Shown: positions 27,702 through 36,524 of the stretch, one piece after another | How positions within the stretch are numbered: the stretch's first letter is position 1 | Layout: every line of letters begins with the position of its first letter | Assembly (NCBI RefSeq): GCF_003075095.1 | Contig: NZ_QCZF01000004.1 | Location: 124,001 to 188,000 of the forward strand | DNA from: Blastococcus litoris | Lineage (GTDB): Bacteria; Actinomycetota; Actinomycetes; Mycobacteriales; Geodermatophilaceae | DNA: 64,000 nucleotides | Reading direction: 5' to 3' | Notes under the pieces: generated by a model | Seen by the model: the letters and a program-made list of their open reading frames with translations, nothing else | Database searches by the model: none | What the model was told of the DNA's origin: nothing | Made by a program: the position numbers and the translations under genes

Positions 27702-28079
27702 ATGTCCGATCTCGATCATGCCCACCCGGTCGACCCCGCGCGGGTCGCCCACGCCCGCGACCGGCTCCCCGGCCGGGAGGAGACCGCCCAGCTGACCAGC
27801 GTGCTGAGTCTCATGGCCGACCCCACCCGGGCGCGGGTGCTGTTCGCCCTGGACGTGGTCGAGGAACTGTGCGTCGGGGACCTCGCGCTGGCCCTCGACG
27901 CGAACGAGGACGCCGTCGGCTACGCACTGCGGCTGCTGCGCACCGCAGGTCTCGTCGCCAACCGGAAGCAGGGACGCGTCGTGTACTACCGGCTCGCCGA
28001 AGGTTTCCCCGAGCCGCTGCGCAACCACTGCCTCCGCCAGTTGGTCGTCCTCGCGAACGCAGCGCCGGAGGAGGACTGA
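27702..28079 (+). CDS. ArsR-family regulator with Cys/His residues
   Basis: 125 residues with the ArsR winged helix. The recognition region reads ELCVGDLALALDANEDAVGYALRLLRTAGLV, related to the ELCVCDL helix of metal-sensing ArsR/CmtR proteins, but the second Cys is Gly. A further Cys/His pair occurs in LRNHCLRQLV near the C-terminus, close to the alpha-5 metal site of SmtB-type sensors. It probably responds to a metal ion or a thiol signal. It lies 171 bp upstream of the complex I-like operon on the same strand and is the best candidate for controlling it. Confidence 0.85.
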   Translation: MSDLDHAHPVDPARVAHARDRLPGREETAQLTSVLSLMADPTRARVLFALDVVEELCVGDLALALDANEDAVGYALRLLRTAGLVANRKQGRVVYYRLAEGFPEPLRNHCLRQLVVLANAAPEED

Positions 28080-28250: not shown

Positions 28251-28592
28251 ATGATCGCTCTGCTGTCGCTGACGGGACTCGTCGTGGCCGGCGTCCTCGG
28301 TCTGCACGCGCTCTCCGCCGCGGTGCGGAGCACGCGCGAGACGGCGTCCGTGCTGCCGTACGAGTCGGGTCTGCGCCCGCAGCAGCACGCCGTCTCCCGC
28401 TACCACGCCCGGTGGTACGCGATCACGGTCCTCTTCCTCGCCTTCGACATGGAGATGATCTTCATGTACCCGTGGGCGGTCGTGGTCGCCGACCTGGGTG
28501 CGCAAGCGGTCGCCGAGATGTTCGGGTTCCTCGCGGTCCTGCTCGTCGGTGTCGTGTACGTCTGGCGTGAGGGTGCACTGCGATGGGCCTGA
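28251..28592 (+). CDS. NuoA-like membrane subunit of a complex I-related complex
   Basis: 113 residues, three membrane helices. NuoA hallmarks are present: YESGLRP followed by the conserved acidic TM2 segment FLAFDMEMIFMYPWAV (canonical FDVEVIFLYPWA). The ATG has a GAGGAGGGCGG site upstream. First structural gene of an eight-gene operon (28251-36524) whose genes overlap by 4-10 bases. In the neighbour order of normal nuo operons, nuoB should follow; here a fused relic follows. Confidence 0.9.
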   Translation: MIALLSLTGLVVAGVLGLHALSAAVRSTRETASVLPYESGLRPQQHAVSRYHARWYAITVLFLAFDMEMIFMYPWAVVVADLGAQAVAEMFGFLAVLLVGVVYVWREGALRWA

Positions 28593-29668
28593 TCGCCCGA
28601 CTGCGGACCTGGGCGCTGTCCCGTCCGGCTGTGCTGCTCGTCGACGTACCGGGCGAGACGACTCTCCGGTGGGCCGCCGAGGCCGAGCTCGAGCGTCGCG
28701 GCTGGCGGCGCGCCGCGACGCCTGCCGACACCGACCTGGTCGTCGTCCTGGGCGAACCCGGACCCGAGCTCGCGGCAGCGGTGGACCTCCTGTGGAGCCA
28801 GGTCCCGGAACCGCGGCACCGGATCGTCGTCCGCGGGCAGGGCGACGTCTCCGCCGAGCTCGACGCGGGCCTCGGTGAGCTCGTCCGGCGCGCCGCAGGC
28901 GGTCCACGAGGGGACCGTCGTCCGTCGCCCACCTCGTTCCTGGACGAGGACGGGGGCATGGACCACGGGGGCATGGACCACGGGGGCATGGACCACGGGG
29001 GCATGGACCACGAGGGCATGGACCACATGCACCACGGGGGAGAGGTGGCCGGGCTGCCCATGGCGTCGACCGGCCCCGACCGTGACGGCCTCGAACTCGA
29101 CGTCCTGGAGGTCGCGCTCGGACCGGTGCTACCGGGCTGGCCCACCGGGCTGGTGCTGCGGGCGGACCTGCAGGGTGACGTCCTGGTGTCGGCCGAGCTC
29201 GCCTGGCTGGACGCCGACGCGCTTCCCACCGGCAACCCGCCGGAGGACTCGCAGTGCGCCGCGCTGGACCGGCTCGCCCGCTTCCTCGACGTCGCCGGCT
29301 GGCCGACGGCAGCCCGCCAGGCCCGCCGGGCGCGCGACGGCCTGCTGGCCGGGACGGATCCAGCCCGAGCACAGCGGCTGGCCCGGGCCGTGGCGAGGCG
29401 GATCCGCCGGTCCCGGGCCCTGGCGTGGACGGCCGGCGGCATAGGGCAGGTCCCCTCGCAGGACGGTGCAGGCGAGGGTGTCGTGGACCGCGTCCGGCGC
29501 TGGTGCGACAGCGCAGCGGGGCAGCCGGTCGACGAGCGGCCCGCGCCGTCGCTGGACGAGGCCGCCGGCCTCCTGCGAGGCACGGAGGTCGGCGGGGCGC
29601 GCCTGATCGTGGCCAGCCTGGACCTGCCGATGCCTGCTCCGACGGCGCCGGAGCGCGCGCATGCCTGA
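28583..29668 (+). CDS. Degenerate NuoB-NuoD-like fusion with Met/His repeat linker
   Basis: 361 residues, overlapping nuoA-like by 10 bases and nuoH-like by 8. Residues 47-80 (PADTDLVVVLG, then WSQVPEPRHRI) follow the NuoB pattern of AD-L-VVAG-K-AP-x-L-YDQM-EP-K/R, but the N-terminal region has no cysteine, so the N2 iron-sulfur cluster cannot be held. Residues 124-148 are five copies of GGMDH or EGMDH, then MHHGG. Residues 177-361 show NuoD landmarks in order: LGPVLPGWPTG (NuoD GPQHxxTHG, His residues lost), GGIGQVP at 285-291 (NuoD GGVAxDLP) and LRG with LIVASLD at 331-347 (NuoD IRG, LIVYLGSID). No NuoC is seen. Homology is my by-eye reading. Probably a structural cap on the membrane arm. 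Confidence 0.65.
   Translation: MGLIARLRTWALSRPAVLLVDVPGETTLRWAAEAELERRGWRRAATPADTDLVVVLGEPGPELAAAVDLLWSQVPEPRHRIVVRGQGDVSAELDAGLGELVRRAAGGPRGDRRPSPTSFLDEDGGMDHGGMDHGGMDHGGMDHEGMDHMHHGGEVAGLPMASTGPDRDGLELDVLEVALGPVLPGWPTGLVLRADLQGDVLVSAELAWLDADALPTGNPPEDSQCAALDRLARFLDVAGWPTAARQARRARDGLLAGTDPARAQRLARAVARRIRRSRALAWTAGGIGQVPSQDGAGEGVVDRVRRWCDSAAGQPVDERPAPSLDEAAGLLRGTEVGGARLIVASLDLPMPAPTAPERAHA
28952..29026 (+). repeat. Five tandem 15-bp units encoding GGMDH
   Basis: Units of 15 bp in frame with the fused NuoB/NuoD-like gene: four near-identical copies of GGGGGCATGGACCAC, then a fifth beginning GAG. They encode residues 124-148, a Met/Asp/His-rich linker resembling copper- or other metal-binding tracts. 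Near identity at DNA level suggests recent expansion or slippage. Confidence 0.9.
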
Positions 29669-30599
29669 GCAGACCTCGGCGGATGCCTGGGGGCTGGCGC
29701 CGGCTCTCCTGGGTGTCCTCGTGGTCGGCCTGCTCCTGGGGTTGGTCGTGGCGGCCGCCGACCGTGCCGTCGTCGCCGGCACACCGAGGCGCGCACTCGA
29801 CCCGCTGCGCTCGAGCGCGCGCCTGCTGGTCGAGCAGCGGCGGACCACGCTCGCGCCCGACCGGCTGCTGTGGCGGCTGGCATGCGGGGCGGTTCCGGTC
29901 CTGGCGCTGCTGACCCTGGCGGTGGTCCCGATCGGGGGTCGGACGCTGTGGTCGACCAGCGCCGACCTCGTGTGGTTCAACGCCATGGAGGCCCTGCTGT
30001 GGGCGGTGGTCTGGCTGGTCGGCTGGGGTCCGAACGCCTTCCACGCCCTGACCGGCGGCTACCGCTTCCTCGCCCAGGGGCTGGCCTACGAGCTGCCGCT
30101 GATGTTCGCCCTCATCACGGCCGGCCTGGCAGCCGGCTCGCTGCGCATGACGGACGTCCTCGCCGCCCAGCAGGACATGTGGTTCGTGGTGACCATGCCC
30201 GTCGCCTTCCTGGTGTTCCTGGCCGGCGCCGCCGCCTTCGCCTTCTGGGGTCCGTTCGCCGCACCCGCCGGAGCCGACATCGCCGGCGGGGTCACCTCGG
30301 AGCTGTCGGGCGTCGATCGGCTGCTGGTCGAGGCCGGCCGGGCGGTGTTCCTGGGGGCGAGCGCGGCCATGGCGGCCGCGCTGTTCCTCGGCGGCGGCTC
30401 CGGGCCCTGGCTGCCCGGCCCGGTGTGGCACCTGCTCAAGACGCTCGCCGTCATCGCGGCGCTGGTGTGGCTGGGCCGGCGGCTCCCGGTGCTGCGCCCT
30501 GACCGGACGGTCGAGGTGGGCTGGGTGGTGCTGGTGCCGCTCACGCTCGTGCAGGCGCTGGTCGTCGCGGTCCTCGTGCTGAGCGGCTTCTACGCGTGA
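29661..30599 (+). CDS. NuoH-like membrane subunit, degenerate quinone loop
   Basis: 312 residues with about eight membrane helices. It matches NuoH at RFLAQGLAYELPLMFALITAG (canonical RAAAQxISYELPLGL) and at the N-terminal TPRRALDPLRSSARLLVEQ region. The normally acidic loop FDLPEAESELVSGYNxEYSG reads here FAAPAGADIAGGVTSELSG: at least two of the conserved acidic residues are missing. In complex I this loop forms the quinone entrance and proton link, so quinone reduction is unlikely. Start ATG within the end of the previous gene. Confidence 0.83.
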   Translation: MPEQTSADAWGLAPALLGVLVVGLLLGLVVAAADRAVVAGTPRRALDPLRSSARLLVEQRRTTLAPDRLLWRLACGAVPVLALLTLAVVPIGGRTLWSTSADLVWFNAMEALLWAVVWLVGWGPNAFHALTGGYRFLAQGLAYELPLMFALITAGLAAGSLRMTDVLAAQQDMWFVVTMPVAFLVFLAGAAAFAFWGPFAAPAGADIAGGVTSELSGVDRLLVEAGRAVFLGASAAMAAALFLGGGSGPWLPGPVWHLLKTLAVIAALVWLGRRLPVLRPDRTVEVGWVVLVPLTLVQALVVAVLVLSGFYA

Positions 30600-30609
30600 G
30601 GAGGACACG

Positions 30610-31191
30610 ATGCTGACCGACCTGTCCGGCGGGGCGATCGCCGCGGTGGCGGGGCTCGGCGTGCTGGCGGTGGCCGCCGGTGTCGCGGTCTTCCGCGTGG
30701 ACTCGATGGCCCGTGCGACGTTCGCGCTGCTGGCGTCGTTCCTGGCCGTCGCCGGCGTCCTGCTGGCCTTCGACCTGGTCTACCTGGCCGTCGTGACGGC
30801 GCTGATGATGACGATCGAGATGGCGATCATGGCCGTCTTCATGATCGCGTTCATGATGAACCCGGCCGGGCTGATGCCGATGACGATGGTGCACAACACC
30901 ACGGGGTCGGCCGTCGTCGGTGCCGGCGCGTTCGCCGTCCTCGCCGTCGGGATCTGGACCGCCGACTGGCCGACCCGCTCCGGACGCCGGCCCGCCGACA
31001 GCACCCGGCAGCTCGGCGAGGCGATCATGGGCGGACACATGCTGGTGATGCTGGTGATCGGCATCGCGCTGTTCGCCACGATCCTCGCCGGCACGGTGCT
31101 GGCCACCTCGCGCGGCCGGTACGACCGCTTCGGTGCCGACCTGGCCGCGTCGCGGCCGGACGACCCGGTGCCCGGGGGGCTGCCCCGATGA
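30610..31191 (+). CDS. NuoJ-like membrane subunit
   Basis: 193 residues with five membrane helices. The NuoJ-type helix 2-3 region reads ATFALLASFLAVAGVLLAFD then LVYLAVVTALMMTIEMAIMAVFM, which keeps the conserved Glu in TM3. Unusually rich in methionine (about 10% within 78-105). Preceded by GAGGACACG and overlapping nuoK-like by 4 bases. In complex I this helix takes part in the central proton path. Confidence 0.87.
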   Translation: MLTDLSGGAIAAVAGLGVLAVAAGVAVFRVDSMARATFALLASFLAVAGVLLAFDLVYLAVVTALMMTIEMAIMAVFMIAFMMNPAGLMPMTMVHNTTGSAVVGAGAFAVLAVGIWTADWPTRSGRRPADSTRQLGEAIMGGHMLVMLVIGIALFATILAGTVLATSRGRYDRFGADLAASRPDDPVPGGLPR

Positions 31192-31505
31192 CCGCGGAGG
31201 TGGTGCTCCAGATCGTGCTGACCGTGGCGGCCGGCCTGATCGGGGTCGGGCTGTTCGGCGCGCTGTCCCAGCAGTCGATCGTCATGGTGATGATGGGTCT
31301 GGAGCTGGTGCTCAACGGGGTGCTGCTGGCCGGCGGGGCGGCCTGGTACTTCCTCGCACCCGAGCTGCCGGACGCGCAGGTGCTCGTGGTCGTCGCACTG
31401 GTCGTCATGGCCGTGGAGATGGCGATGGGCTTCGCCGTCACGGTCGCCATCTACCGCGCCCGGCAGGTGGACATGGTCGACATGGCGACGGACCTGCGCG
31501 GATGA
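31188..31505 (+). CDS. NuoK-like membrane subunit
   Basis: 105 residues and three helices. The two membrane glutamates essential for proton transfer in NuoK are kept: MMGLELVLNGVLL in TM2 and MAVEMAMGFAVTVAIYR in TM3. Starts in an ATGA overlap with nuoJ-like and ends in an ATGA overlap with nuoL-like. The same fold is MrpC in Mrp antiporters, so the gene also fits an antiporter-like complex. Confidence 0.9.
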   Translation: MTAEVVLQIVLTVAAGLIGVGLFGALSQQSIVMVMMGLELVLNGVLLAGGAAWYFLAPELPDAQVLVVVALVVMAVEMAMGFAVTVAIYRARQVDMVDMATDLRG

Positions 31506-33439
31506 CCGCTGCGCTCGCCGCCCTGGTGCTGCTGCCCGCCGTGACCGGGGCGGCGCTGCTGATCGCGGGACGACGGGCCGACCGGGTCGCCGGCCCGGCG
31601 GCCGTCGGGATCACCGGAGTCGCCGTCGTGCTCGCCGCCCTGTCGGCGGCCGCCCGCCCGAGCATCTCCGCGCCGTTCCTGGGCATCGTCGACGGCGGGG
31701 ACCTGCGCCTGGTCGTCGACGGCCTGTCCGCGGTGCTCGTCCTGCTGGTCGCGGGGATCGCCCTGCTGGTCACCGTCTTCGCCGTCGCGGACCTGCCGGT
31801 CGGTGCGGCGCGCGCCCGCTTCTCCGGGTTCGTCCTGCTGTTCGTCGCGGCCATGCTCGCGACCGTCACCGCGGCCACGCTGCCGGCTCTGCTGCTGGCC
31901 TGGGAGGTGATGGGTGCGACGTCCTACGCGCTGATCGGCTTCCGCTGGGACGAGCCCGGCAAGCTCGCTGCCGGCACCCGGGCGTTCGTCACCACCCGGG
32001 CCGGCGACCTCGGGCTGTACGTGGCGGCGGGGGCCGCTCTCGCGGCCACCGGCAGCCTGGCGCTGGCCGACCTCGGGGCCGCGGACGGCGGATGGGCGGA
32101 CCTCGCCGCGGCCGGCGTGCTCGTCGCTGCGCTCGGCAAGTCGGCGCAGCTGCCCTTCTCGGCGTGGCTCTCGGCAGCGATGCAGGGCCCCAGCCCGGTC
32201 AGCGCGCTGCTGCACTCGGCCACGATGGTCGCCGCCGGCGGCTACCTGCTGCTCCGGATGCAGCCGCTGCTCGCCGGTACCGGCTGGGCGGCCACGACCG
32301 CGGCCTGGGTCGGCGCACTCACCGCGCTGGTCCTGGGCGCGGTCGCCGTGGCGCAGACGGACCTCAAGCAGTTGCTGGCCGCCAGCACCGCCGCCCAGAT
32401 CGGGTTCGTCGTCCTCGCCGCCGGTGCCGGTGCCACCGCCGGCGGCACCGCGCACCTGGTCGGGCACGCCGCGGTCAAGGCGGGGTTGTTCGTCGCCGCG
32501 GGGGCATGGCTGTCGGCGCTGGGCACCAAGCAGCTAGCCGGCCTGCGGGGTGCCGCCCGGCGATACCCGGGGGTGGGGGCGGCGGCCACCGTGGCGGCGC
32601 TGGCGCTGGCCGGCGTGCCGCCGCTCTCGCTGTGGGCGACCAAGGACCAGGTGCTGGCCGGCGTCGAGGGGACGGCGCTGACGGTCGTGGGGCTCGCCGC
32701 CGCGGTGCTCTCGGCCGTCTACGCCGGGAAGATCCTGGCCGTCGTCCTGGCCCGGCCGACGGGGGAGGAGGTCCTCGACGAGGAGGAGCCGGGGACCCGG
32801 CATGTCCCGCTGCCGACCCGAGTTGCAGCCGGCGTCCTGGCGGTGTTCGCCGCCGGGCTCGGGGTGCTCGCCCTGCCGGCCGTGGCCGACGCGCTGAGGA
32901 CGGTGCTGGACGCGGAGGGCGAGCCCTCTCCCGGGCTCGGGGAGCTGCTCCTCTCCGGCGGGCTCGCCGTGGCGGCCCTGGCGCTGACCGTCCTGGTCGG
33001 CCGGGCCCGGCCGGCGGTCGGCATGGCTCTCGAGCGGAGCCCGCTCGCCGCGTGGGCCGGGCTGGGGCACCTGCTCTCGCCGCGGCCGGCGCTCGCGGTC
33101 GCCCGCGTGCTGGCCGCCGTCGACGACCGCGGGATCGACCGGGTGGTCCGGGGGGCGGGGACCGTCGTGCGCCGGGTCGCGGGGCTGGCTGCCCGGGCCG
33201 ACGACGGCGGCATCGACCGGGCGGTCACCGCTGTCGTCGCCGGGACACGGCGGGTGGCGGCCGCCTCGGCCCGCACCGACGACGGGCTCGTCGACGGCGC
33301 CGTCCGTGGGATCGCGCGGGCGGTGCGCCGCGCCGGTGACGCCGCGCGGCGCCCCCAGACCGGGCTCCTGCACCAGTACTACGCCCAGACCGCCGCCGGT
33401 CTGGGGTTCCTGCTCGTCCTCCTGCTCGTGGTGAGGTGA
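31502..33439 (+). CDS. NuoL-like antiporter-type subunit with triplicated C-terminal repeat
   Basis: 645 residues. Core residues of the proton channel are kept: Glu135 in LLAWEVMGATSYALIGF, Lys in GKSAQLPFSAWL, His-Lys segment VGHAAVKAGLFV and Lys in WATKDQVLAG. The C-terminus, where NuoL has its long lateral helix, holds three successive repeats beginning DDRGIDRVVRG, DDGGIDRAVTA and DDGLVDGAVRG (about residues 540-620), followed by a final hydrophobic helix. GTGA/ATGA overlaps join it to nuoK-like and nuoM-like. Confidence 0.9.
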   Translation: MTAALAALVLLPAVTGAALLIAGRRADRVAGPAAVGITGVAVVLAALSAAARPSISAPFLGIVDGGDLRLVVDGLSAVLVLLVAGIALLVTVFAVADLPVGAARARFSGFVLLFVAAMLATVTAATLPALLLAWEVMGATSYALIGFRWDEPGKLAAGTRAFVTTRAGDLGLYVAAGAALAATGSLALADLGAADGGWADLAAAGVLVAALGKSAQLPFSAWLSAAMQGPSPVSALLHSATMVAAGGYLLLRMQPLLAGTGWAATTAAWVGALTALVLGAVAVAQTDLKQLLAASTAAQIGFVVLAAGAGATAGGTAHLVGHAAVKAGLFVAAGAWLSALGTKQLAGLRGAARRYPGVGAAATVAALALAGVPPLSLWATKDQVLAGVEGTALTVVGLAAAVLSAVYAGKILAVVLARPTGEEVLDEEEPGTRHVPLPTRVAAGVLAVFAAGLGVLALPAVADALRTVLDAEGEPSPGLGELLLSGGLAVAALALTVLVGRARPAVGMALERSPLAAWAGLGHLLSPRPALAVARVLAAVDDRGIDRVVRGAGTVVRRVAGLAARADDGGIDRAVTAVVAGTRRVAAASARTDDGLVDGAVRGIARAVRRAGDAARRPQTGLLHQYYAQTAAGLGFLLVLLLVVR

Positions 33440-35058
33440 CCGTGCTGCTGACCGTCGTGATCTTCCTGCCGCTCCTGGCGGCGGCCGTGCTCGTCGCCTC
33501 CCCCGGGATGTCCGGGCGGTCAGCGACCGGGCTCTGGATCGCCGCCTCCGCCGCGGACCTGGTGCTCGTCGGCTGGATGTGGTGGAGGTTCGAGCCCGGC
33601 ACGGGTGCCTCGGGCGTCCTCGACGGGCCGGCCTTCGAGGCCGACCTGCAGTGGATCCCGACGGTGGACGCCGGCTACCACGTCGGCGTCGACGGGCTGT
33701 CGCTGCCGCTGCTGGCGCTGACGGGCGTGCTCTTCCTCGCCTGCGCCGTGTACTCGCTGCGTGAGCCCGATCGGCCGCGCACCTACGCGGCGTTGTTCCT
33801 CTTCCTGCAGACCGCGTGCGTGGGCACCTTCGCGTCGCTGGACCTCATCCTCTTCTTCGTCTTCTTCGACCTGACGATCGTCGGGATGTACTTCGTCATC
33901 GCCGGCTGGGGGCACGGCAACGCCCGTCGCAGCGCGCTGACGTTCTTCCTCTACACCTTCATCGGGTCGCTCGCCCTGCTCGTGGGCTTCATCGGGCTGT
34001 TCCTCGGCAGCGAGGAGCGCACCTTCGACATGGTGGCCCTGGCAGCCGACCCACCGCTGGCGGACTCCCCGGTGGCCGGTGGGCTGGTGCTGCTCGCGAT
34101 CGGGCTCGGGCTGGCGGTGAAGACGCCGCTGTTCCCGTTCCACACCTGGCTGCCCGACGCGCACACCGACGCACCGGCGGCCGGGTCCGCCGTGCTCGCG
34201 GGCGTCCTGCTCAAGCTCGGCACGTACGGCTTCGTGCGCATCGCGATGCCGATCCTCCCCGACGCGTGGCAGCGCTGGGCGATGGTCGCCGTGGTCGTCG
34301 GGGTGATCAGCGTGCTGTGGGGGGCGTTCGTCGCGCTGGCCCAGACGGACGTGAAGCGGATGATCGCCTACACCTCGGTCAACCACATGGGCTACGTCCT
34401 GCTCGGCCTCGGCGCCGCGGGGCTGGTGGCCTCGGCGGACGAGGGGGCGCGCACGGTGGCCACCGTGGGTGCGATGTACCAGATGGTCAGCCACGGTCTC
34501 CTCACCGGCGCGCTGTTCCTGCTCAGCGGCTGGCTGTGGTCCCGCGGGCACACCTACGCCTTCGAGCAGTGGGGCGGGCTCGCCCGTCCGGCACCGGTGT
34601 TCGCCGCCTGCCTCGCCGTGGCGGCCTTCGGATCGCTGGGGCTCCCGGGGCTCTCCGGATTCATCGCCGAGTTCCAGGTCTTCACCGGGGCGCTCGAGGC
34701 CGTGCCGGTCGCCACCGTGATCGCCGTCGTCGGCATCCTGGTCACCGCGGGGCTGTTCCTGCTCGCCCTGCAGCGGCTGCTCACCGGCGACACCGTCGCC
34801 CCCGGCGGGACGGATCCCGGTGGGGAGCCCGGCGCCGGTCGGGCGGGAGAGGGACGGGCTCCCGCGCGCGCCGGCGCTGTCTCATCGGTCGCGACGGAGG
34901 TCCCGCCAGCGACGGGCATCCGTGACCTCCGCGGCCACGAGCTCCTGGCGATCGTCCCGCTCCTCGCGCTCGCCGTGGTGCTGGGTCTGTTCCCCCGCGT
35001 CCTGCTCGACGTCCTCGAGCCCGCTGCGACGGCGGTGGTGGAGCTGGTGGCCCGGTGA
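33436..35058 (+). CDS. NuoM-like antiporter-type subunit, TM5 Glu replaced by Asp
   Basis: 540 residues. The TM7-8 region AVKTPLFPFHTWLPDAHTDA with LLKLGTYGF and the TM12 Glu in SGFIAEFQVFTGAL are canonical NuoM features. The TM5 glutamate of NuoM (FFEAxLIPMY) is Asp145 here in FFDLTIVGMYF. A 40-residue Gly/Pro/Ala-rich insert (about 455-495) sits before the last helix. Starts at GTG in a GTGA overlap. Confidence 0.9.
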   Translation: MTVLLTVVIFLPLLAAAVLVASPGMSGRSATGLWIAASAADLVLVGWMWWRFEPGTGASGVLDGPAFEADLQWIPTVDAGYHVGVDGLSLPLLALTGVLFLACAVYSLREPDRPRTYAALFLFLQTACVGTFASLDLILFFVFFDLTIVGMYFVIAGWGHGNARRSALTFFLYTFIGSLALLVGFIGLFLGSEERTFDMVALAADPPLADSPVAGGLVLLAIGLGLAVKTPLFPFHTWLPDAHTDAPAAGSAVLAGVLLKLGTYGFVRIAMPILPDAWQRWAMVAVVVGVISVLWGAFVALAQTDVKRMIAYTSVNHMGYVLLGLGAAGLVASADEGARTVATVGAMYQMVSHGLLTGALFLLSGWLWSRGHTYAFEQWGGLARPAPVFAACLAVAAFGSLGLPGLSGFIAEFQVFTGALEAVPVATVIAVVGILVTAGLFLLALQRLLTGDTVAPGGTDPGGEPGAGRAGEGRAPARAGAVSSVATEVPPATGIRDLRGHELLAIVPLLALAVVLGLFPRVLLDVLEPAATAVVELVAR

Positions 35059-36524
35059 CGAGCATGTCCGGTGGCACGGAGGCGTGGCCGGCCCTCCTGC
35101 CCGAGGGGCTGCTCCTGCTCGGCGCGGTCGGCGGGCTGCTGCTCGGGCTGTGGACCCCGCAGCAGGCGCAGTGGCGGGTGCGGCTCCTGGTCACGGCGGC
35201 CTGCCTGGCCAGCGCGACGGCTGGGGCGGTCGCGATGTCCCGTCCGGACGAGCGGGTCTTCGAGGGCACCTGGGTCGTCGACACCACCACGGGCGTCGTC
35301 CGGATCGTCGTCGCCCTCGGGGTCGCCGTCCTCGTCTGGCTGGCGGCTCCCTCGGTGGCCGGGCACCCGCGGGAGACCGAGGCCTACGTCCTCATGCTGC
35401 TGGGGGCGCTGGGCAGCGTCGCGCTGGCGGCCGGCGGCGACCTGCTCCTGCTGGTGGCCGCCTACCTCCTGGCGAGCGTGCCGCTCTACGCCCTGGCCGG
35501 TGTCGCCAAGGACGCCGCCGGCACCGAGGCGACGATGAAGTACTACCTCATGGGCGCCTTCGCCGGCGTGCTCCTGCTGGTGGGCGTCGCCGCGCTCGTG
35601 CTCGCCTCGGGCACCACCGGCTACCCGGAGCTGGCCGCCGCCCTCCCGGACGCGTCTCCCGCGCTGCTGGCCCTCGGCGTCCTCGGGGTGCTGGCGGGGG
35701 TGGCGTTCAAGGCAGGCGCCGTGCCGGTCCACTTCTGGGTTCCCGACGTCACGGCCGGGACGACGCCTCCGATGGCCGCCTACCTCACCACGATCCCCAA
35801 GATCGGTGCGGTCGCGGCCGCGTTCCGCCTGGTCGCCGAGCCGTTCGCCGGTCTGCCGCTCGACGTCCCGCTGCTCGTCGCCGTCCTCGCGACGGCCAGC
35901 ATGACGCTGGGCAACCTGGCCGCGTTCTCCCAGACCGACGTCCTGCGGCTGCTGGCGTACTCCACGGTCAGCCAGGTCGGCTACCTCTTCATGGTCGTCG
36001 CGGTGGCCGCCCGGACCGATCTCGCCGGCCCGGCCCTCGCGCTCTACCTGGCCGCGTACGCGGTGACCAACATCGGCGCCTTCGCAGCCGTCGCCGCCAC
36101 ACCGGCGGCACGGACGATCACGGACTGGGTCACGGCCGCAGGACGGCACCGCCGGCTGGTGGGGAGCCTCGTGGTGTGCCTGCTCGGCCTGGTCGGGACC
36201 CCGCCGACGGCGGTCTTCGTGGGCAAGCTCGCCGTCTTCACCGCAGCATGGGACGGCGGACTGGCGTGGTTGGTCGTCGTGGCTGCGGTCAACACCGTCG
36301 CCAGCCTCTTCTACTACCTGCGCTGGGTGGCCCCTGCGTTCGCCGGGGTACCCGTCGCGCCCGTCCCGGCGGAGGGGCCGGTGGGCAGCGGTGCACGCAC
36401 GTCGGCCGGAACGCGGCAGGAGGTCCGCCGGTCGCCGGAGGCGATCCTGCACGCGGCCGCCGTCGGATCCGTCCTCCTCGGCGTGGGTGCCGGCGTGTGG
36501 CTGGGGGTCAGCGGGGCCTCCTGA
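35055..36524 (+). CDS. NuoN-like antiporter-type subunit lacking the TM5 Glu
   Basis: 489 residues. Retains the channel lysines in GVAFKAGAVPVHFWVPDV, IPKIGAVAAAF and FVGKLAVFTAAW. The TM5 segment is LLLLVAAYLLASVPLYALAG: the conserved glutamate (canonical GIELxSLPLY) aligns with Tyr137, so the entry residue of the Glu-Lys pair is lost. Last gene of the operon. GTG start overlaps the nuoM-like stop. The tail has an insert of low-complexity sequence before the final helix. Confidence 0.88.
   Translation: MTSMSGGTEAWPALLPEGLLLLGAVGGLLLGLWTPQQAQWRVRLLVTAACLASATAGAVAMSRPDERVFEGTWVVDTTTGVVRIVVALGVAVLVWLAAPSVAGHPRETEAYVLMLLGALGSVALAAGGDLLLLVAAYLLASVPLYALAGVAKDAAGTEATMKYYLMGAFAGVLLLVGVAALVLASGTTGYPELAAALPDASPALLALGVLGVLAGVAFKAGAVPVHFWVPDVTAGTTPPMAAYLTTIPKIGAVAAAFRLVAEPFAGLPLDVPLLVAVLATASMTLGNLAAFSQTDVLRLLAYSTVSQVGYLFMVVAVAARTDLAGPALALYLAAYAVTNIGAFAAVAATPAARTITDWVTAAGRHRRLVGSLVVCLLGLVGTPPTAVFVGKLAVFTAAWDGGLAWLVVVAAVNTVASLFYYLRWVAPAFAGVPVAPVPAEGPVGSGARTSAGTRQEVRRSPEAILHAAAVGSVLLGVGAGVWLGVSGAS

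Follow-up and report, generated by a model that had tools for sequence, protein, structure and literature searches.

A redox-free relative of the complex I membrane arm as a candidate copper(I)-handling complex

What does the membrane arm of respiratory complex I do in an operon that encodes no electron-transfer subunits? The question is raised by a 64,000-nucleotide stretch of the Blastococcus litoris genome (contig NZ_QCZF01000004.1; hereafter the window, meaning this whole stretch), in which positions 28251-36524 hold eight abutting or overlapping genes in the order nuoA-X-nuoH-J-K-L-M-N. Across related operons, copper-resistance neighbours, metal-binding stretches in protein X and a methionine-rich membrane core make it possible that a copper pump has been fashioned from a respiratory enzyme. 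Judging from the sequences, a role in copper or a similar soft metal appears very likely, and transport of the metal by the complex rather probable. That the operon specifies a membrane complex for handling copper(I), derived from the complex I membrane arm and working by the full mechanism proposed below, is a suggestion for which we see the case as evenly balanced.

The gene set itself is already known, and on this point the first-pass annotation of the window, which knew of no description of such a complex, was mistaken: a partial NDH-1 operon has been in print since 2012. In excerpts, Penn and Jensen 2012 (PMC3314556) report for Salinispora a second NDH-1 operon, partial and comprising seven membrane genes. 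They infer its horizontal acquisition, note that its nearest relatives are proteobacterial clades, and suggest that it pumps Na+ or H+ in seawater; the marine-adaptation reading recurs in excerpts of PMC4018334, PMC6002675 and PMC8622039. Excerpts of PMC6676996 report a hypothetical protein after nuoA, in the same gene order, in Streptomyces, Salinispora and Kocuria, and doubt that the operon is specific to marine life. The "partial NDH-1 operon 2" or "nuoAHJKLMN marine adaptation genes" of these five papers comprise the same gene set and are very probably the same system, as judged by their published description and not by comparison of those strains' sequences. The excerpts treat the genes as a proton or sodium pump for seawater, leave the hypothetical protein unnamed and draw no link to copper; nor was a copper link for these genes found in excerpts of the open-licence PMC literature. 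Two carriers do come from copper-rich sites, a Kocuria from a copper mine (PMC6002675, excerpt) and a Streptomyces from copper-rich mine fluids (PMC6676996, excerpt). As far as excerpts of the open-licence literature show, neither the identity of X and its metal-binding features nor the methionines or the copper linkage have been published.

The operon and protein X

Pfam and NCBIfam matches, residue conservation and an AlphaFold model of X (pLDDT, predicted local distance difference test; pTM, predicted template modelling score) give the following features.

27702..28079, + strand: ArsR/SmtB-family regulator, upstream of the operon (NCBIfam HTH_metalloreg, E 1.5e-18)
28251..28592, + strand: nuoA (PF00507, E 1e-28), with family-specific M69, M72 and H52
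28583..29668, + strand: X, a fused and shrunken NuoB-NuoD remnant of 361 aa (AlphaFold pLDDT 87, pTM 0.84)
28583..28897, + strand: NuoB-like domain of X (about residues 1-105), without tandem cysteines (profile match to NuoB/NDUFS7, E 1.3e-6; hhalign to NuoB, 90%)
28952..29035, + strand: His/Met/Asp-rich tract of X (MDHGG repeats, about residues 124-151; low pLDDT)
29063..29641, + strand: NuoD-like domain of X (about residues 161-353)
29661..30599, + strand: nuoH (PF00146, E 2e-40), quinone-tunnel residues partly lost by residue states
30610..31191, + strand: nuoJ, with 11 family-specific near-invariant methionines and new E70 and H95 (family versus canonical conservation)
30805..30858, + strand: methionine-rich third helix of NuoJ (residues 66-83; model helix 57-81, conservation)
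31188..31505, + strand: nuoK, with family-specific M33, M74 and M78 beside retained glutamates (conservation)
31490..33439, + strand: nuoL (start uncertain, 31490 or 31502; PF00361, E 5e-48), lysines kept
33436..35058, + strand: nuoM (PF00361, E 7.4e-64), with K234 and E407
35055..36524, + strand: nuoN (PF00361, E 8.2e-45), lysines kept

The operon thus encodes all seven complex I membrane subunits, A, H, J, K, L, M and N, as the first-pass annotation had seen. Its view that nuoC, E, F, G and I are missing was also confirmed by the Pfam and NCBIfam searches, which gave no match to them among the eight genes; the iron-sulphur peripheral arm (B with its tandem cysteines, C, E, F, G and I) is not represented there. 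In Pfam the proteins match only complex I-type families, with no RND or P1B ATPase fold. Edge loss, already discounted in the annotation, and decay are ruled out by the relatives: the order is identical in 69 of 80 related loci, every one that holds the whole cluster, and the other 11 end at a contig edge. The HAD gene that follows the operon was considered as a further component and rejected, having no matches in the relatives.

Sequence profiles and the structure model together identify X as a shrunken NuoB-NuoD fusion, which bears out the earlier proposal. The NuoD half reached a probability of 0.3% in a two-sequence profile comparison. Foldseek with the X model gave no match at E<=0.001, no NuoB chain stands among the 50 VIA structure matches listed, and 4 of 9 plasmid-borne X proteins matched no Pfam family at E<=0.1. 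The tandem-cysteine (CC) motif of NuoB is present in none of 84 X proteins, and 58 of the 59 counted, some of them partial, have fewer than four cysteines in total. In this X differs from the large subunit of group 4 [NiFe] hydrogenases and their relatives, which carries four metal-binding cysteines.

What X has gained lies at the junction of its two domains, where a His/Met-rich tract (seven His and seven Met in the window protein, poorly ordered in its AlphaFold model) links them. When a crude pattern is used to delimit the linker, at least six histidines fall within it in 61 of 84 X proteins; in X of Nitratireductor, Rubrobacter and Paracoccus it is occupied by arrays of heavy-metal-binding domains (HMBD; PF19335, E 2e-27 to 2e-41). 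Different lineages place different soft-metal modules at the same site, a pattern that points to selection for metal binding in most relatives of X. Loci L043, L073, L081 and L108 were excluded from the X set, and further rows from the fold alignment (66 rows); 12 of 61 genomes were retained out of 13 listed, G011 being excluded as its X match consists of the repeat tract alone.

Methionines and proton-channel residues of the membrane subunits

Family members were compared with a canonical reference set, made up of subunits encoded at 19 loci of the same genomes together with those of E. coli, of Ensifer and of the window's own genome. The family rows include some contigs twice, so that the 116 NuoJ rows, for example, represent 91 clusters at 90% identity. 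Sixteen methionines are near-invariant in the family, two in NuoA, 11 in NuoJ and three in NuoK, and at these positions methionine occurs in none of the 20-22 canonical sequences. For NuoJ they are M33, 66, 67, 71, 74, 78, 82, 83, 91, 93 and 144 (115-116 of 116 family rows versus 0 of 20), accompanied by E70 and H95 (116/116 versus 0/20); for NuoA, M69 and M72 (126/126 versus 0/22), accompanied by H52 (124/126 versus 0/22); and for NuoK, M33, M74 and M78 (117, 116 and 113 of 117, versus 0 of 20). An earlier alignment had placed an E. coli methionine at one of the 11 NuoJ columns; the refined one leaves none in the 20 canonical sequences. Conservation of these columns extends over NuoJ rows of as little as 25% pairwise identity, eight of them proteobacterial. 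NuoH has no family-specific methionine, and methionine content is not raised in H, L, M and N. The overall pLDDT of the NuoJ model is 71.6. By analogy with complex I structures, the helices bearing the A, J and K methionines would lie along the path that connects the quinone site with the antiporters.

The proton-channel residues of L, M, N and K are mostly retained. K229, K342 and K399 of NuoL are kept in 113/113 sequences; K234 and E407 of NuoM in 114/114 and 112/114; K247 and K395 of NuoN in 110/110 and its K217 in 102/110; and E36 and E72 of NuoK (E. coli numbering) in 117/117 and 113/117. The exceptions are NuoM E144, replaced by Asp in 102/114, and NuoN E133, replaced by Leu in 103/110. 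Several quinone-tunnel residues of NuoH are changed across the family, and these losses argue against quinone reduction. The residue states thus bear out what the window sequence had suggested on first reading, that the antiporter lysines are kept and quinone-site features of NuoH lost. Compared with respiratory complex I, the family shares all seven membrane subunits and most proton-channel residues, but it lacks the NADH and iron-sulphur modules in its operon, has NuoB and NuoD reduced to X, is methionine-rich in A, J and K, and forms a separate clade of NuoH: in a tree built from 50 family rows and 21 canonical ones, a branch with support 100/100 sets the family apart.

Copper genes beside the family and its spread

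The family is strongly linked to copper genes. In a controlled test on 38 genomes that hold the family or pass its NuoA cut-off, 27 of 39 family nuoA genes have a DUF305 or CsoR gene within 10 kb, against none of 43 canonical ones, with 0.98 expected at random places. A wider scan of named genomes gave at least 533 matches encoding a NuoA relative, some perhaps canonical, of which the best 80 were used for neighbour analysis; a copper-type neighbour occurs in 44 of these 80 loci (23 of 24 in Geodermatophilaceae as judged by title, 21 of 56 in others), a count made without a matched control. Neighbour clusters were counted over 87 loci, that is the best 80, six further ones and the window, with some strains perhaps repeated. 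They comprise DUF305 lipoproteins (29 loci), ArsR (25), CsoR (22, named by a PF02583 match at the same place), F510_1955-type (20), short DUF305 membrane proteins (19), DUF6153 (13), CopA-type ATPase (12), BlaI/CopY-type (12), CopZ-like (11), M56 peptidase (11), thioredoxin-like (11), K+-channel-like (10), multicopper oxidase (6) and Csp (4), the DUF305 neighbours being DUF305/CopM-type proteins. Near the window copy lie a Na+/H+ exchanger, a TrkA protein and a YetF-type protein. The first-pass annotation took its K+ and Na+ context as a clue to function; we reject it as such because copper genes make up most of the neighbours that recur in relatives.

Regulation adds to the linkage. We found CsoR-type palindromes within 300 bp upstream of nuoA at 10 of 126 loci (eight independent) against 0.94 expected, and none in 365 kb of canonical nuo loci; none was found in the window. 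Copper sensors include ArsR and CopY types (PMC3817396, excerpt). As ArsR-type copper sensors are known, the ArsR regulator of the window is compatible with a putative role in copper sensing.

The same genome carries a second copy of the partial operon (L026, contig C13:12000-31900), and there genes for a CopA-type ATPase, CsoR, a Csp-like protein and DUF305 lie between or near ArsR and nuoA. Separate canonical nuo genes, which by the first-pass annotation would refute its reading if they were co-transcribed and their products co-purified with these subunits, do occur in part: homologues of NuoA, D, H and J-N, the subunits looked for there, lie on contig C3. Among 296 genomes, 27 passed the NuoA cut-off, and two of these (G062 and G244) adjoin a full NuoD and are canonical, leaving 25. 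The best 80 named loci carry actinomycete titles except one (L042, SPQJ01000007.1), titled Bacillus sp. AZ43, which is probably mislabelled and likely of the window's own genus. Proteobacterial rows fall in two of the three deep branches of family NuoH, which, as read from that tree, fits transfer between phyla.

Plasmids carry the family as well. The window NuoH finds 34 plasmid records, with hosts including Alpha- and Gammaproteobacteria and Rubrobacter; of the 22 inspected, one is canonical and one has too few gene names, leaving 20 readable loci that contain two near-duplicate pairs. Copper or heavy-metal efflux genes accompany 14 of the 20 (Actinomycetota, Alpha- and Gammaproteobacteria), three of these with a generic heavy-metal P-type ATPase; one has DUF305 alone, and five have no copper-type gene in the stretch seen, X being annotated as heavy metal-binding in two of the five.

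Several further arrangements were seen at these loci. On the near-duplicate Mycobacterium avium complex plasmids L123 and L135, genes for a heavy-metal P-type ATPase and an integrase are found close to the operon; on a Pseudarthrobacter plasmid an IS3-family transposase gene (L134:9411-11231) is placed between X and nuoH and seems to fall inside X; and two Rhodobacterales plasmids (L139:5893-9551, L140:4903-9322) have a sigma-70-family factor, a DUF6629 gene and a short "proton-conducting transporter membrane subunit" 5' of nuoA. A K+-channel-like gene lies beside the operon in L026, L045, L048, L053, L054, L055, L074, L088, L112 and L118, and on plasmids of Pseudarthrobacter and Acuticoccus (L134:7945-8823; L136:9653-10057). 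The F510_1955-type lipoproteins and DUF6153 proteins accompany both the operon and the copper genes.

The proposed mechanism and its rivals

We suggest that, in an assembly with complex I-like geometry, X would sit as a lid on the former quinone chamber, pick up Cu(I) from the cytoplasm and pass it into the chamber. Cu(I) would then move along the near-invariant methionines of NuoA, NuoJ and NuoK, which would take the place of the region through which the antiporters were once coupled to quinone chemistry. The subunits NuoL, M and N, with their proton-channel lysines kept, would couple the passage of Cu(I) to inward proton flow, and the proton gradient would thereby drive Cu(I) out of the cell. 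As excerpted, PMC7558416 proposes a methionine ladder for Cu(I) in the proton-driven exporter CusA (HME-RND); passage along methionines would be a principle shared with CusA and with P1B ATPases such as CopA, but the protein families are unrelated, and the path here would run through complex I subunits. In its most far-reaching form, the proposal is of metal transporters that make up a class of their own: Cu(I) exporters driven by protons, in which the quinone-coupling core has become a methionine-lined path and a NuoB-NuoD remnant acts as loader, and which copper-resistance islands and plasmids have carried between phyla. Comparing these sequences, we consider this form slightly less probable than its negation.

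Several observations weigh against copper transport. At most one linker histidine and no HMBD are found in 12 of the 84 X proteins (with the linker delimited by the same crude pattern), so the complex can do without the tract. Placement of the NuoJ methionines on one helix face is not clear-cut, with p 0.05 and 0.17 in window numbering, compared with p 0.007 in the first alignment. The 27 linked loci are not independent, 24 coming from two families, and 12 of 39 have neither marker within 10 kb; by family, the linkage is 10/14 in the window's own, 14/15 in the one containing Rubrobacter and 3/10 elsewhere. Outside Geodermatophilaceae, 35 of 56 named loci have no copper-type neighbour. A tblastn search with the 14 neighbour clusters, which recovered the ArsR gene as positive control, found no copper genes in the 64 kb around the window copy, and this copy bears on the copper reading through its family alone. 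Genes that share an island can, moreover, be co-inherited without sharing a function, and the recurring K+-channel-like gene is left unexplained by copper.

How far do other explanations cover the same observations? A cation/proton antiporter or ion pump against salt, pH or osmotic stress, with the copper genes as passengers on a stress island, would account for the retained antiporter residues, the Na+/H+ exchanger and TrkA protein of the window, and the K+-channel-like genes at 10 of 87 loci. Excerpts of PMC3314556 and PMC6676996 claim enrichment in marine strains and faster growth in artificial seawater, although PMC6676996 itself doubts the marine specificity. Such a pump leaves the metal-binding X, the confinement of the methionines to A, J and K and the copper linkage unexplained, and we regard it as distinctly unlikely. 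The Mrp-like pump or antiporter suggested in the first-pass annotation fares similarly: its kept antiporter residues stand, and antiporter-like subunits without redox partners are shared with Mrp cation/proton antiporters, but the operon has NuoA, NuoH and X, and MrpE, F and G have no match among its genes. The observation behind that annotation is confirmed and its interpretation partly supported. The metal-binding features and the copper linkage would be equally expected of a copper-gated proton or cation channel or a sensor-regulated pump, in which copper is signal and not cargo; metal on X and the methionines might, for example, regulate ion flow and so guard or restore the proton gradient when copper has damaged the respiratory chain. 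A run of methionines through the NuoJ core into A and K would exceed the needs of one regulatory site, and we consider gating of this kind unlikely.

Copper might also flow the other way. An importer or loading device supplying Cu(I) to extracytoplasmic copper enzymes (multicopper oxidase, sulfocyanin, DUF305/CopM) would explain why genes of these types adjoin the operon at several loci. The usual neighbours are CopA, CopZ, CsoR and storage proteins, which fits detoxification, and the X side of complex I is cytoplasmic, so that a metal-binding tract there counts against import; this makes an importer improbable. Least probable of all is a redox enzyme in which X with another donor, or with borrowed canonical Nuo subunits, still reduces quinone. 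NuoD (PF00346) matches occur in 37 of 38 genomes examined, so canonical subunits could be borrowed, but the place of NuoB and NuoD is already taken by X, the NuoB tandem cysteines are missing throughout, and the NuoH quinone tunnel is altered. Copper potentials, too, are too high for menaquinone reduction, and a redox role seems highly improbable.

If the proposal of a proton-driven Cu(I) exporter is right, the ion-pumping arm of complex I would have been re-coupled from quinone reduction to copper. This would provide a natural experiment on energy transmission through the arm, together with a new kind of copper pump, and would correct published work in which these genes are catalogued as serving marine salt adaptation. 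Should copper act as a regulator and nothing more, a redox-free complex I arm capped by a metal-binding protein would still be novel.

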